Assembly: GCA_016779825.1 (NCBI GenBank)
Contig: JADHMX010000007.1
Location: 1 to 41,557 of the forward strand
Direction of reading: 5' to 3'
From: Synechococcus sp. BS301-5m-G53
GTDB taxonomy: Bacteria; Cyanobacteriota; Cyanobacteriia; PCC-6307; Cyanobiaceae
Length of the DNA: 41,557 nt
Shown here: one piece after another, positions 41-31,305 of the stretch
Numbering within the stretch: the stretch's first letter is position 1
Layout of the letters: every line of letters starts with the position of its first letter
Translations under genes and position numbers: made by a program
The notes under the pieces: model-generated
What the model saw: the letters and a program-made list of their open reading frames with translations, nothing else
What the model was told of the DNA's origin: nothing
Database searches by the model: none

Positions 41-52
<12 letters not shown>
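1..52 (+). CDS. Possible 3' end of a gene entering from the left
   Basis: An open frame runs from the window edge to a TGA at 50-52 and would encode a C-terminus reading [16 protein letters not shown]. The hydrophobic stretch followed by a short polar tail looks like the end of a membrane protein converging on clpB, with a 12-base overlap of the two 3' ends. Such tail-to-tail overlaps occur elsewhere in this window. Only 16 codons are visible, so this is a weak call; the frame could be open by chance. Confidence 0.3.
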
Positions 53-2629
<2,577 letters not shown>

Positions 2630-2773
2630 CTCTGATGCTTTTCAAACTGCGTTCACCGTATGGCGCTTGTCCCGTTCTCAGTGGGGGCAAACCGAAGCCG
2701 TTGGTTGGGTCCTCACGCCAGGGGGCGGCAAACCAGGGCAACTTTTTAGAGTTTGCCGAACCGTTGAGTGCCA

Positions 2774-2983
2774 ATGCCTGACCAGCCGCTGGTGGACTCC
2801 CTTGTGCAGCAGAGCTTGGCGCTCGCAGCGACAGCTGGCGGCGAGCTGGAGCGCAGCTGTTGGATGGTGGTGCATGAACACCACCACGGCGTGAAACCCA
2901 CCGAGTACGACATTCGGGACATCGACGAGGACCTCTACCTGGCTGTGTTGCAGGCGGCCAAACAGGCCCAGTCCGCTGGTTAA
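2774..2983 (+). CDS. Small conserved-looking hypothetical protein
   Basis: A 69-residue acidic protein of unknown function. The ATG at 2774 was chosen over an in-frame GTG two codons upstream. The protein begins MPDQPLVDSLVQQ and contains a distinctive aromatic/histidine segment, WMVVHEHHHG, at about residues 31-40, followed by an acidic helix (DIRDIDEDLYLAVLQAA). No signal peptide or membrane segment is visible. It lies divergent to clpB across about 140 bases and abuts tail-to-tail the minus-strand gene ending at 2984. Real coding character is suggested by the patterned amphipathic helices and tight packing. I do not recognise the family; the HEHHH cluster could bind metal, but that is a guess. 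Confidence 0.7.
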   Translation: MPDQPLVDSLVQQSLALAATAGGELERSCWMVVHEHHHGVKPTEYDIRDIDEDLYLAVLQAAKQAQSAG

Positions 2984-3277
2984 TCAGCCGTTGAGCAGTT
3001 CACGCAGAAGAGCACGGTGAGCGTTTTCGGCTTCGATGCTCTCCCGCATCTCTTTGGGAAGGCGGGCCTCCAAGATGTCCTGCTTTTTCATCTCAGTGGC
3101 GTAGCGGCTGCTGAACTCGCTGAAGCGATTGAGGTAGGGCGTAGCGGTCTCTGTGGTGAAGGCAATCACCTCCAGGGCATGTTTGAAGTGGAGGTAAGAC
3201 ACGGTCCACTCGACCAGTTCGTCAAAACTATGGAGGCCAAGCGGGTTGTCAGGGAGTGTCATCGCTGCATCGCCCAT
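2984..3277 (-). CDS. Hypothetical protein, last gene of the petJ cluster
   Basis: About 97 residues, predicted all-alpha, without signal peptide or membrane segment. The sequence has a tryptophan/tyrosine-rich helix (ELVEWTVSYLHFKHALEVIAF) and a charged C-terminal helical half (EMKKQDILEARLPKEMRESIEAEN). The start is ambiguous: a TTG at 3289, an ATG at 3277 or an ATG at 3262. I prefer 3277 because it sits four bases after the TGA of the preceding gene (3282-3284), a spacing typical of coupled translation. It is the distal gene in the minus-strand series petJ - Nif11 - unknown - this gene. I do not recognise the family. It may be a small interaction module, but no function can be read from sequence. 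Confidence 0.7.
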   Translation of the reverse strand: MGDAAMTLPDNPLGLHSFDELVEWTVSYLHFKHALEVIAFTTETATPYLNRFSEFSSRYATEMKKQDILEARLPKEMRESIEAENAHRALLRELLNG

Positions 3278-3281
3278 GGTT

Positions 3282-3677
3282 TCAACCAAAACCCTCGGCC
3301 TTGGCCTGGGCGGTGAGGTCTCTCAATCGACCGTTGAGCAGCACATCGCGTTCACGGTCTGCCCCCACATGGGGGGCGATCTCCACCCCAGCGGCCTGCA
3401 TGGCTCGCATCGCTGTGGCCTCATCTGCTGACCCTGTTTCACTGCTGATGTAGCGCTCCACGGCGGCTGCCCCTGTGGCATCCGCCGCGAAGTACACCGT
3501 TCCCGGGCCGCGCCGTTCGATGGTTTGCTGTCGCTGCCGGCGTCGGTGTTGCACGCTTGCCCAGAGCCTGCCTTGATTGGCGGTCATAAAGGCATTCAGA
3601 TCGGCGGCGTCGGTGTCTTCCGCCAGGGCCATGCTGGTGCCGTCAACGAAATCACTGAGCAGGGTGACAACGGCCAT
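3282..3677 (-). CDS. Hypothetical protein following the Nif11-domain gene
   Basis: About 131 residues with the ATG at 3677, which overlaps the upstream Nif11 gene by 26 bases; an ATG at 3632 would give 116 residues and no overlap. The N-terminus is mildly hydrophobic (MAVVTLLSDFVDG). A basic helix (QHRRRQRQQTIERRG) is followed by a segment reading PGTVYFAADATGAAAVERY and a helical C-terminal region with a possible turn VEIAPHVGADRERD. No clear catalytic motif is present. Its coupling to the Nif11-domain gene and to the gene at 2984-3277 suggests one transcript with petJ at the head. Family not recognised. The open frame continues upstream through the 15-bp repeats, but that extension is not likely to be translated. 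Confidence 0.65.
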   Translation of the reverse strand: MAVVTLLSDFVDGTSMALAEDTDAADLNAFMTANQGRLWASVQHRRRQRQQTIERRGPGTVYFAADATGAAAVERYISSETGSADEATAMRAMQAAGVEIAPHVGADRERDVLLNGRLRDLTAQAKAEGFG

Positions 3678-3948
3678 CAGAACTGTGTTGATCGAGAGGT
3701 GTTGATTGAGGAGGTGTTGATTGAGGGGGTGTTGATTGAAACGAGCGTTGGATTCGGCTGGTCTCAAACCATTGGGTGATCGCTGATTCCTGGGCGTCGT
3801 CGCTGAGATCCCGCTGAATCACATTGAACCCATGGCGGCGTGCCAGGGCCAGCAGCTGAACGTCATCACGGCACTGCGCAGCATCGCGCCGCAAGCCCTG
3901 GTGATGCTCTATGGCCCGCAGAAAATCTTGAAGAGCTTCACGACTCAT
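3652..3948 (-). CDS. Nif11-domain protein with repeat-encoded tail
   Basis: A 98-residue protein whose first 65 residues fit the Nif11/N11P leader-like domain: start MSREALQDFLRAIEHHQGL, then a helix with LLALARRHGF and a following DLSDDAQ. This family includes nitrogen-fixation-associated proteins and, in marine picocyanobacteria, leader peptides of lanthipeptides (prochlorosins). Prochlorosin leaders end in a double-glycine cleavage site before a Cys-rich core. Here there is no GG/GA site; the tail is QSTPPQSTPPQSTP-like, encoded by 15-bp DNA repeats, and contains one Cys. It is therefore more likely a free-standing Nif11 protein than a lanthipeptide precursor. The start lies five bases after the petJ stop with an AAGGA ribosome site, so co-expression with cytochrome c6 is likely. 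Function unknown. Confidence 0.8.
   Translation of the reverse strand: MSREALQDFLRAIEHHQGLRRDAAQCRDDVQLLALARRHGFNVIQRDLSDDAQESAITQWFETSRIQRSFQSTPPQSTPPQSTPLDQHSSDGRCHPAQ
3685..3743. repeat. 15-bp tandem repeat in the Nif11 gene tail
   Basis: Three consecutive 15-bp units beginning GTGTTGATTGA occupy 3699-3713, 3714-3728 and 3729-3743, with a degenerate 14-bp copy (GTGTTGATCGAGAG) immediately before at 3685-3698. On the coding minus strand the in-frame units give the motif QSTPP repeated. The third copy differs in its last bases. The array falls just after the conserved Nif11 domain and before the next gene, a position where length variation would be tolerated. Confidence 0.9.
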
Positions 3949-3953
3949 CGTCC

Positions 3954-4313
3954 TTACCAGCCCAATTCGGCCCGTTGTTCGATGTAGGTGGCCACAGCAA
4001 CGATCTCCTCTTCCGTGAGTTTGTCGGCATAGCCCGGCATCGCATTCAGGCCATCCTCGATCTCATGCTCGAGGGCCTCCAGCGGGGTGCTCGTATAGGC
4101 CTCAACGTGGTTGTTGAGGTCGCTGATCTTCAGTGTCCGGTTGGCGCGGATCACATTGCCGCCGCCCATGTGACAGGCCGCACAGTTGCTGTTGAAGATC
4201 TGCTCACCTCGTTCCAAAGCAGCGCCATCGACAGCCATCGCTGGAGAAGACAGCAGACCTGTCGCACCAACGATCAACAGCAACGTCAGGATCAGGCCTG
4301 ATACGCGTGCCAT
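3954..4313 (-). CDS. petJ: Cytochrome c6 (soluble cytochrome c553)
   Basis: Lumenal haem protein that carries electrons from cytochrome b6f to photosystem I or terminal oxidase, the iron-based alternative to plastocyanin. The 119-residue precursor starts at ATG 4313 (MARVSGLILTLLL) with a Sec signal peptide ending near SSPAMA. The mature part has the haem attachment site CAACH and a methionine axial-ligand region (NAMPGYADKLTEEE), then the C-terminal helix VATYIEQRAE, all standard for c6. Longer upstream frames are rejected because they lack a signal-like N-terminus. It is 132 bases downstream of petE, separated by a strong terminator, and is followed after five bases by the Nif11 gene. In the family, expression often responds to copper or iron supply; nothing here shows that directly. 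Confidence 0.95.
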   Translation of the reverse strand: MARVSGLILTLLLIVGATGLLSSPAMAVDGAALERGEQIFNSNCAACHMGGGNVIRANRTLKISDLNNHVEAYTSTPLEALEHEIEDGLNAMPGYADKLTEEEIVAVATYIEQRAELGW

Positions 4314-4363
4314 CGCAACCCCTCTAATACCCCAAGGTATCCATCGGTTCCAACAAATAAAAG

Positions 4364-4398
4364 AACCCTGGGCTGTGATTGACACACAGCTCAGGGTT
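4364..4398 (-). terminator. Rho-independent terminator after petE
   Basis: A 14-bp near-perfect inverted repeat (left arm 4364-4377, right arm 4385-4398, seven-base loop) has one mismatch. On the minus strand it is followed by a T-rich run (CTTTTATTT). It is correctly placed to end petE transcription before the separate petJ promoter. Confidence 0.85.
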
Positions 4399-4445
4399 TT
4401 CTGTTGGATTGGCGAATTCGCGTGATTTCCTCAGAAACCTTGGAA

Positions 4446-4805
4446 TCACTCAACAATCACTTTGCCAACCATGCCTGCACCTCGGTGGGGCTCGCAGTAG
4501 AAGTCGTAAGTGCCAGCGGTGGCGAAGGTCTCTTCCCAGGATTCGCCGGGATTGAAGGCGAGATCGGAGTGGCTGTACTCGTCATGGCCGTCGAAAACGG
4601 CGTTGTGAGGAGCCAGTTTGTTGTTGATGAACTTGACGGTGTCACCGGCCTTGATGTTCACAGTGGCGGGCTCAAAAGCGAGCATGCCGCCGTCGGTGCC
4701 GAGCTTCACTTCAACGGTGGCAGCTTGAGCGCTGCCGACGTTGAGGCCGATCAGCATCAGGAAGGCGCAGCAGGCAGCTGCAATGGTGCGGATGACGGAG
4801 CGCAT
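4446..4805 (-). CDS. petE: Plastocyanin
   Basis: Lumenal type-1 copper protein that shuttles electrons from cytochrome b6f to photosystem I. The 119-residue precursor starts at ATG 4805 ([13 protein letters not shown]) with a signal peptide cleaved after about SAQA. The mature domain shows all four copper ligands: His in LAPHNAVF, and Cys, His and Met in [10 protein letters not shown] near the C-terminus. Frames extending further upstream lie inside the preceding gene and lack a signal peptide. Only seven bases separate it from the stop of the SDR gene. Either it is co-transcribed with hemE-SDR, or its own promoter lies inside the SDR 3' end, which would suit a highly expressed gene. A strong terminator follows at 4364-4398. 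The cytochrome c6 gene lies immediately downstream. Confidence 0.97.
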
Positions 4806-4812
4806 GAAAGGG

Positions 4813-5832
4813 CTAGGTCGATGCGTCGACATTACGCGCTGATCTAGGGGTTCCGCGGTTGGGTAGGCCGGAATCACAAAGAACTGTTGCCAAGTCGGGG
4901 GCCTGGCTGCTGCCGCCAAAGCGCTCTGGCTGGGTTACAGGGTCGTGAATGAAGTGGCGCTGGCGAATGCTGAACCGGTCCCAGGCGTTCACCTCGATCG
5001 GCAGCACGCGGATCAGCGTCTCAATCAGCCATGGCCAGAGCGGAATGCCAGGCGTACGGGCCACACCGCGCCAGCGGCAGAGGGTTTTCACGGTGTCATT
5101 CACCGAAATGGCCGGCTGTCCCATCACCACCCGCCGCAGGGCACCTTGACCGGGCTCGCGGTTTGGCTCATGGGGACGTGTGGCCAAGAGGCCGCAGATG
5201 CGGGCGATGTCTTCGGCATGGATGAAATGGAAGCTTGCATCCACCCGAAGCCAACGGGCCAACCAGAGCCAACGGCTGGCTTCTGCCAAGCCTTCGGTGA
5301 GGTAACTGGTGGGGAAGGGACTGGTGCCATCGACGCGTCCGCCGAACACCAAGGTGGGAAACACCGCGATGACTTTGCTGGCCAGGGTGTGCTGTTCGAG
5401 ATCCCTGAGGCAGCGAGCTTTCGTTTGGATGTATTCGGTGCCGTAGGCCAGTGCTTCCGGCAGGGGGCGCAGGTGCCGGTCGAGCACGCTGGCCGTCGAA
5501 AAGTAAATGATCTGCTCCAGCTTGCTTGGATCCAGAAGCTCAAGCATTCGTTTCACTGCCACCACATTCACCTGTTCGGCCCGCTCGGGATCACCCCAGG
5601 CGGTAGCGGTGTGGATCACCCGGTTCACCGATGCAAGCTCATGGGAAAACCGGTCGGTGTCCCGCAGGTCTCCCACCAGCAGACGGATGCGTGGATGGTC
5701 TTTGGGAACAGCCGTGAGTTTTGCGGGATCCCGCAGCCAGAGCAGCAGCTCCGCATCGGAATGATCCAGCAGCCAGCGGGAGATGTACTGACCGACGCAT
5801 CCGCTGGCGCCGGTCACCAGGATGCGGGTCAA
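4813..5832 (-). CDS. NAD-dependent epimerase/dehydratase (extended SDR)
   Basis: A 339-residue Rossmann-fold protein beginning [16 protein letters not shown], the GxxGxxG nucleotide-binding motif of extended short-chain dehydrogenases. After a second strand (LLVGDLRD) come NRVIHTA and a candidate catalytic region with a Ser-Thr pair ([10 protein letters not shown]) and a [12 protein letters not shown] segment that supplies the Tyr-xxx-Lys dyad. The start codon is a TTG at 5832 overlapping the hemE stop by four bases (TTGA); it is supported because the Rossmann strand begins directly there. Together this implies translational coupling to hemE. The substrate is not evident; homologues are often annotated as nucleoside-sugar epimerases, but a role in chlorophyll or haem chemistry should be kept open given its position after hemE. 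Its 3' end probably contains petE regulatory sequence. Confidence 0.88.
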
Positions 5833-30729: not shown

Positions 30730-31305
30730 TCAGCCCTCGGTTGCTTCGGTTTTGGTGTCGTCCGTGGAAACGTCCGCTACAGCTGCTGGGTTGGTGTCGT
30801 CGCTCGGGACCGCTTCTGACTCGACCACAGGCTCGGGCACTGGTTCAACCTGTACTTCCGGCTGGGGTTTGGCTGGGCGAGCAAAGGGGTTCGGACGCGA
30901 GCCACGGCTGCCGCGCTCGTCATCAAAACGGCGACCGCGACCACCACCATCGCGACCACCACCATCGCGACCACCGCCATCGCGACCACCGCCATCACGC
31001 CGGCCAGCACGGGCAGGTTGATTGCGCTGCTGCTCGATCAGGGCGTCAAGTTGGCCGTCCTCCAGCATCTGCCCAAGGCTGCGGACTGCGAAACCCAACA
31101 CGGCAACGGTGGAGCGGAGATTGAAGGCCTCCTGCAGTGCCCTTGCCGAGCGCATTTCGTTGTCACTCAGGCGAATGCGAAAGCCACCGCCTTCACGGCC
31201 ACCGCCTTCACGGCCACCGCCACGGTTGCCACGACTGCGCTGGCCGTCGCGACCGCCGTCTCCCTGTCCCGCCTGCTGTTGGGGATCGCTGTAGGAATCA
31301 CTCAT
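30730..31305 (-). CDS. Gly/Arg-repeat protein with ribbon-helix-helix-like core
   Basis: A 191-residue protein of three parts. Residues 1-41 are polar and Gly/Arg-rich with two REGGG repeats. Residues about 42-95 form a compact core: strand FRIRLS, helix DNEMRSARALQEAFN, turn, helix STVAVLGFAVRSLGQML. The order beta-alpha-alpha with this spacing resembles ribbon-helix-helix DNA-binding proteins. Residues about 98-130 contain RDGGG repeated four times, encoded by 15-bp repeats, then an acidic Pro/Glu/Val-rich tail. RGG-type repeats commonly bind RNA or drive condensation. Nucleic-acid binding is a reasonable inference, but the target is unknown. It lies between the unknown gene at 31322 and trpS with very short spacers. 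Confidence 0.78.
   Translation of the reverse strand: MSDSYSDPQQQAGQGDGGRDGQRSRGNRGGGREGGGREGGGFRIRLSDNEMRSARALQEAFNLRSTVAVLGFAVRSLGQMLEDGQLDALIEQQRNQPARAGRRDGGGRDGGGRDGGGRDGGGRGRRFDDERGSRGSRPNPFARPAKPQPEVQVEPVPEPVVESEAVPSDDTNPAAVADVSTDDTKTEATEG
30937..30996. repeat. Four 15-bp tandem repeats encoding RDGGG
   Basis: Four head-to-tail units of 15 bp (30937-30951, 30952-30966, 30967-30981, 30982-30996). The first two are GCGACCACCACCATC and the last two differ by one base (GCGACCACCGCCATC). They lie within the coding sequence and keep frame. A shorter pair of related 15-bp units (GCCACCGCCTTCACG) at 31183-31212 encodes the N-terminal REGGG repeats. Confidence 0.95.

Follow-up and report, generated by a model that had tools for sequence, protein, structure and literature searches.

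Analysis of a 41,557-nucleotide stretch of Synechococcus sp. BS301-5m-G53 DNA (the window) revealed a Nif11-domain gene, nif11, lying immediately downstream of the cytochrome c6-type gene petJ. Comparison with related genomes showed that nif11 is a distinct single-copy orthologue in marine picocyanobacteria and is under purifying selection. Discussion of Nif11 proteins usually centers on RiPP leaders or on nitrogen-fixation proteins without a known function; nif11 is most likely an ordinary protein gene, not a RiPP precursor. We propose, with about even confidence, that its product is a small soluble cytoplasmic non-RiPP protein that acts as an adaptor or regulator of the electron-carrier locus and is coupled to petJ where petJ is present. 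A functional link is only slightly more probable than the alternative that nif11 is a passenger of the locus.

Organization of the nif11 locus

The window corresponds to contig C1 in a genome bin of 1.74 Mb (114 contigs, 79% complete, 5% contaminated). The minus-strand cluster and its convergent neighbour are arranged as follows.

4813..5832, minus strand: SDR-type dehydrogenase/epimerase-like gene (named by sequence inspection alone)
4446..4805, minus strand: petE, plastocyanin, 119 aa (profile searches)
4355..4399, minus strand: intrinsic terminator-like hairpin and U run in the petE/petJ interval (folding)
3954..4313, minus strand: petJ, cytochrome c6-type protein, 119 aa, CAACH haem site, ATG at 4313 (ORF and profiles)
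3652..3948, minus strand: nif11, 98-aa Nif11-domain protein, core approximately residues 1-70 (ORF and HMM)
3685..3739, minus strand: 15-bp tandem repeats coding the QSTPP tail (3.7 copies, 92% matches)
3282..3677, minus strand: U132, 131-aa protein of no assigned family (ORF)
2984..3277, minus strand: U101, 97-aa protein of no assigned family, ATG at 3277 (ORF)
2768..2983, plus strand: S71, convergent conserved 71-aa gene without a Pfam match (Pfam search)
41..2629, minus strand: clpB, 862 aa (named by sequence inspection alone)

Only 5 nt (3949-3953) separate petJ from nif11, U132 overlaps nif11 by 26 nt with the stop codon included, and U101 starts 4 nt beyond the end of U132. An earlier note, made from the sequence alone, had described a Nif11-type gene five bases past petJ followed by two unknown genes, and this description was correct. 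No Rfam match for a structured RNA was obtained at the gathering threshold between positions 2000 and 7000. The same bin contained a diverged second SDR-petE-petJ-nif11-S71 copy on contig C9 (L002); in the locus tree this copy clustered with genus g34, and contig C9 is probably contamination from another Synechococcus-like genome.

nif11 encodes a conserved Nif11-domain protein

Searching the window protein with the Nif11 HMM, a check suggested earlier, gave a match to PF07862 of 38.5 bits (E 1.4e-9, gathering cut-off 23.8) that spanned profile positions 1-48 of 48. We then compared a 77-row orthologue profile with 242 genomes of the class. Among the matches listed (E <= 1e-7) there were two groups: an upper group of 14 matches at 86 bits or more, covering profile positions 1 to at least 69 and all belonging to this family, and a lower group at 45 bits or less, all ending by position 61 and including the 17 matches of genome G102. 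Conservation extended past the Pfam domain, with a C-terminal WF in 70/77 orthologues and WFxxS in 67/77; positions 57-68 were conserved similarly to the domain (entropy 1.92 versus 1.83 bits), and the less conserved positions were 49-56 (2.80 bits) and 69-74 (2.63 bits). Across 13 close loci, the median dN/dS was 0.135 for the nif11 core, compared with 0.046 for petE, 0.119 for U132, 0.135 for U101 and 0.161 for petJ.

The predicted structure of the window protein comprised four helices (residues 3-15, 17-24, 29-38 and 45-63) and a disordered tail, with residues 72-89 at pLDDT below 50. We infer that the protein is cytoplasmic; a signal peptide was not seen by eye. Comparison of the fold with the PDB was uninformative, the best hits being SonA borosin precursor chains (E 4.0, Z 3.5, rmsd 6.2 over 56 residues). 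By sequence, the Nif11 domain matched the Nif11 domain-containing protein of PDB entry 9zn4 (E 7.3e-6), a match confined to profile positions 1-52 of 74. Matches to anti-sigma factor N-terminal profiles were weak (MucA 0.017, RseA 0.02) and fell to 0.27 and 0.34 with a larger alignment. A phage origin for nif11 was rejected, as tblastn returned no match among 50,697 phage records at E 0.01; in PHROGs, nif11 had a single match (E 0.18) and U132 and U101 had none.

nif11 lacks the marks of a RiPP precursor

An N11P-type RiPP precursor would combine a Nif11 leader with a modified QSTPP core peptide. The N-terminal Nif11 domain is indeed shared with the N11P family TIGR03798 as presented in the available text of Haft et al. 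2010 (PMC2887384), the tail of the window protein is Ser/Thr-rich and variable among 13 genomes, and Nif11 proteins near photosynthetic genes are treated as putative precursors in the available text of Arias-Orozco et al. 2023 (PMC10783134). The match to the TIGR03798 leader model, however, was 24.4 bits against a cut-off of 32.3, and unlike the N11P family described there nif11 is single copy and has neither a GG site nor a Cys-rich core. The absence of a double-glycine cleavage site, reported in the earlier note, was borne out: GG was absent from the window protein and occurred in 1/77 orthologues. A Cys after residue 60 was found in 4/77, including the window protein, where it lies in the end read from U132. 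Furthermore, 58/77 orthologues end at 66-77 aa, without room for a core peptide, and positions 57-68 are conserved like the domain. A search for modifying enzymes, confined to LanM-type enzymes, identified LanM in just 2/34 genus genomes (1 over the cut-off) and none in the window bin, which is 79% complete. The precursor was rejected on the GG, Cys, C-terminal and LanM evidence, and we regard it as very improbable.

The repeat-encoded tail is a strain-variable spacer

The tail of the window protein, QSTPPQSTPPQSTPL, is encoded by the 15-bp array, in agreement with the QSTPP-type tail of tandem repeats noted earlier. The last eight residues (DGRCHPAQ) lie outside the repeat and correspond to the first U132 codons read in another frame. 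In 13 loci (L007-L019), the main variation in the stretch between the core, which ends in RSF or a similar motif, and the first codon of U132 consisted of 15-bp units, and tail length past SF ranged from 10 to 28 residues; other genus members had little or no tail. The junction itself also varied: the nif11 stop and the U132 ATG overlapped by 1 nt (TGATG or TAATG) in 18 genus loci, and in the window, L021, L022 and L025 nif11 continued, in a different frame, through the first 26 nt of U132. Given this variation in length and the read-through into U132, the tail is a strain-variable, slippage-prone spacer and not a conserved feature. That the tail is instead a functional disordered arm would fit the frame-preserving 15-bp units and the S/Q/T/P composition maintained in the 13 related genomes, but its predicted disorder, its range of lengths, its near absence from other genus members and the four loci in which its end is read into U132 make this improbable.

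Two more 15-bp tandem arrays were observed in the window (30936-30996 and 31183-31221, scores 108 and 78), both in one GGGRD-rich ORF of 191 aa. The downstream gene U132 was present in 24/28 genus loci and 2/6 g34 stretches. Its model was confident (pLDDT 86), and comparison with the PDB gave no convincing fold (best E 0.3; best Z 4.4, rmsd 3.1 over 63 residues); against Pfam it gave weak matches alone, the best being SGL (E 0.001, in 6/24 members). The N-terminus of U132 was very conserved (MAVVTLLSDFxDGTSMAL), by eye likewise at the DNA level.

petJ and nif11 are strictly spaced, and nif11 persists without petJ

Within the genus (34 genomes), nif11 was matched in 28 genomes, and petJ at this locus (minimum identity 60%) in 23; in these searches petJ without nif11 was not seen. 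The gap between petJ and nif11 was -4 to +5 nt in 23/23 genus (g1) loci, 6/6 loci of genus g34 and the contig C9 copy, a total of 30/30, and 130-190 nt in three loci of genus g35. A survey of the family (161 genomes) revealed nif11 matches in 56 genomes and 31/59 genera. Of these matches, 52/56 scored 57 bits or more; the remaining four, in G150, G156, G172 and G177, reached only 41-46 bits and probably represent different Nif11 genes.

The gene was also common at loci that lack petJ. Among 111 petE loci, 33 carried petJ and nif11, 43 nif11 alone, 9 petJ alone and 26 neither, so that nif11 was not found in 35/111, 9 of them with petJ. Of 94 petE-bearing genomes, all but five (G136, G148, G155, G161 and G185) had their petE loci retrieved; the 28 genus loci in the set, also used in the locus tree, were selected for the presence of nif11. 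Presence was scored at a profile E of 1e-4 or better, such that L071 (partial, E 0.001) counts as absent, and L129, counted as neither, ends with its contig soon after petE. The 43 petJ-less nif11 loci comprised 38 from other genera (mostly small genomes) and 5 from the genus itself. In 76/76 loci that had both genes, nif11 shared the strand of petE and lay downstream of it; the fetched nif11 loci had petE upstream, and the L102 stretch ends before petE. In the 43 petJ-less stretches, clpB followed with the same orientation.

A tree built from SDR, petE and ClpB, midpoint-rooted and probably so on long branches, placed the five petJ-less genus loci in two separate positions. Hence petJ was probably lost from the locus on two or more occasions within the genus while nif11 was retained. 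In four petJ-less genus loci (L021, L022, L025 and L029) we observed, just upstream of nif11, a 12-codon ORF that starts with ATGGCA, like petJ, and ends in an ATGA overlap with nif11; this ORF may be what remains of petJ, still coupling nif11. Six genus genomes (G009, G012, G014, G018, G019 and G029) had no match for the petJ-locus nif11, nor for the Nif11-cupin gene described below; as G029 is 98% complete, the absence of both is likely real, at least there.

These data qualify the tie to a lumenal cytochrome c6 claimed in the earlier note. Comparison of petJ neighbourhoods upheld the conserved pair, with its strict spacing in the petJ-bearing loci of g1, g34 and C9, and did not uphold its specificity, with 43 loci lacking petJ against 33 with both genes. 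A c6-specific partner was ruled out on the basis of these 43 loci; the partner is thus not c6 alone. The same evidence bears on the possibility that nif11 is conserved yet unrelated to electron carriers, its coupling to petJ merely borrowing translation and its position being inherited. The 43 loci without petJ and the 26 with neither gene favor such a passenger, as does the SDR-petE-clpB order, which is conserved generally, so that the neighbor may be merely inherited. The spacing in 30/30 petJ-bearing loci argues against it.

A terminator-like hairpin separates petE from the nif11 unit

In the window, the region downstream of petE (4335-4410, minus strand) folded into the hairpin and U run at -29.8 kcal/mol (z -5.1). 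Similar structures between petE and the next gene were found in 31/33 loci with petJ and 41/43 petJ-less nif11 loci, compared with 5.5 and 1.7 expected from shuffles that preserve base composition only. Co-transcription of the nif11 unit with petE was considered unlikely given these hairpins in 72/76 loci. petE thus appears, from folding predictions, to be insulated by an intrinsic terminator, and the petJ-nif11 unit, or nif11 alone, probably begins past it. Since petJ-less loci also have the petE terminator before nif11, the link between nif11 and petE is positional only, a separation that again suits a passenger gene. Between nif11 and clpB in petJ-less loci, terminator-like structures were few (6/43 versus 2.8 expected), making read-through to clpB possible. 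A simple pattern scan, which also missed the petE hairpin, found no promoter-like site at the locus. The abutment of petJ and nif11 (ATGA overlap or a few nt) in the Synechococcus-like genera suggests that they are probably translated from one message, and we infer from the gene arrangement that the two are co-transcribed and translationally coupled.

The neighboring cytochrome

The closest PDB relatives of the window PetJ were cytochromes c6 (E 1.3e-20), and its score against the PetJ equivalog model NF045930 (106.3 bits) was below the cut-off of 135. According to the available text of Slater et al. 2021 (PMC8358224), c6 has Q at the position-52 equivalent and c6B has V, L or I. The window PetJ and 12 close relatives (L008-L019) have E, neither the c6 nor the c6B residue; all other petJ at this locus have Q, except for S in L033 and R in L089. 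Redox tuning by the E-for-Q change in the window-type c6 is possible. The 13 genomes with this E (the window and L008-L019) are the same 13 that carry nif11 repeat tails.

Further c6-like genes were identified away from the locus. G022, G024, G008, G023, G030 and G033 each had one (37-42% identity) besides the locus c6 and c6B. Among 18 searched genomes without petJ at the locus (14 with nif11, 4 without), five (G058, G061, G063, G090 and G102), which we call Prochlorococcus-like on the basis of genome size, carried elsewhere a c6-like gene whose position 52 is Q. No Nif11 ORF was found beside these genes in the surrounding 3- to 10-kb stretches, which speaks against a specific c6 tie.

A second Nif11 gene adjoins a c6B-type cytochrome

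Contig C88 of the window bin (L001, 802-2022) carries a c6B-type cytochrome, with I at position 52, together with YciI and DUF3136 genes and a divergent Nif11-cupin gene that matched TIGR03890 at 268 bits (cut-off 159). The Nif11-cupin gene was present in 28/34 genus genomes, the same 28 that carry the petJ-locus nif11, and in 28/28 it was oriented oppositely to the c6B-type match, at a distance of 97-429 bp. In G001, G013 and G022 the c6B locus lies on one contig with the petJ locus, 9-10 kb away; in the window bin it is on a different contig. The 28 cases are one shared history and not independent, and the two loci are linked. Both pairs place a Nif11-domain gene beside a c6-type cytochrome in the same genomes. 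The TIGR03890 protein, in contrast to the window Nif11, has a cupin domain and is transcribed divergently from its cytochrome; the window protein scored 22.6 bits against TIGR03890, from the Nif11 part only (cut-off 159.45).

Genus genomes contained 2 to 21 Nif11 genes (7 to 10 in 17/19 of the most complete), from which the computed chance of a Nif11 gene within 700 bp of a given gene was 0.0065 for 7 genes and 0.0145 for 21. This low chance, and the presence of a different Nif11 gene beside a second c6-type cytochrome in the same genomes, count against the view that nif11 is carried along with the locus without a link to electron carriers. Considering the evidence on both sides, that view is credible though short of even likelihood.

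Nif11 genes beside photosynthesis genes in published work

We searched open PMC papers and found none pairing Nif11 with petJ, or with Synechococcus and cytochrome c6; one paper contained both Nif11 and plastocyanin, the latter confined to its reference list, and a paper on c6-like proteins (PMC10513939) contained no word starting with Nif. The link, called unexpected in the earlier note, is not entirely so in view of related reports. In the available text of Slater et al. 2021 (PMC8358224), 'Nif1 domain', YciI and DUF3136 genes are stated, as data not shown, to adjoin most c6B, whose function is given as unknown. That of Arias-Orozco et al. 2023 (PMC10783134) mentions a Nif11 cluster near photosynthetic genes, which may or may not be the nif11 described here. 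A stand-alone marine Synechococcus Nif11 protein beside photosynthesis genes is also known in Unk10, of the phycobilisome and CA4 regions (PMC3877281, available text); like the window nif11 in this respect, Unk10 differs in its locus and its length (107-118 aa). Finally, a 'Nif11 domain-like protein', which may be this or another Nif11 protein, was elevated with added iron (PMC9723758, available text).

Proposed role and significance of nif11

In the mechanism that we favor, nif11 would encode a small, soluble, cytoplasmic four-helix protein. petJ and nif11 would share one message and be linked by termination-reinitiation, such that Nif11 would be made whenever this c6 is made, and petE would be kept apart by its intrinsic terminator. 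The C-terminal repeats would serve as a slippage-prone spacer from the folded core to the next start codon. Its most likely role would then be that of a cytoplasmic protein serving the electron-carrier locus through binding or regulation. Cytochrome c6 and plastocyanin act in the lumen; for this reason, and because nif11 persists where petJ has been lost, the protein is unlikely to act directly on mature c6. Its target would be something other than mature cytochrome c6 and common to petJ-bearing and petJ-less strains, for example the expression or precursor handling of lumenal carriers.

More speculatively, Nif11 domains of marine picocyanobacteria might form a cytoplasmic control or chaperoning module for c6-type cytochromes, in which c6 is served by the coupled Nif11 of approximately 72 aa and c6B by the divergent Nif11-cupin. 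The function of the c6-linked protein would then be wider than c6, and this would explain the retention of nif11 in Prochlorococcus-like lineages after petJ left. We consider this broader proposal unlikely.

nif11 thus represents a stand-alone Nif11 protein that holds a fixed place beside photosynthetic carrier genes, lacks RiPP marks and is retained even in small Prochlorococcus-like genomes. With its natural petJ-plus and petJ-minus loci, it offers a defined gene for testing the Nif11 domain outside natural-product synthesis. Taken together, the petJ/nif11 and c6B/Nif11-cupin pairs provide a handle on c6B, and this is the part of the finding that holds most interest.
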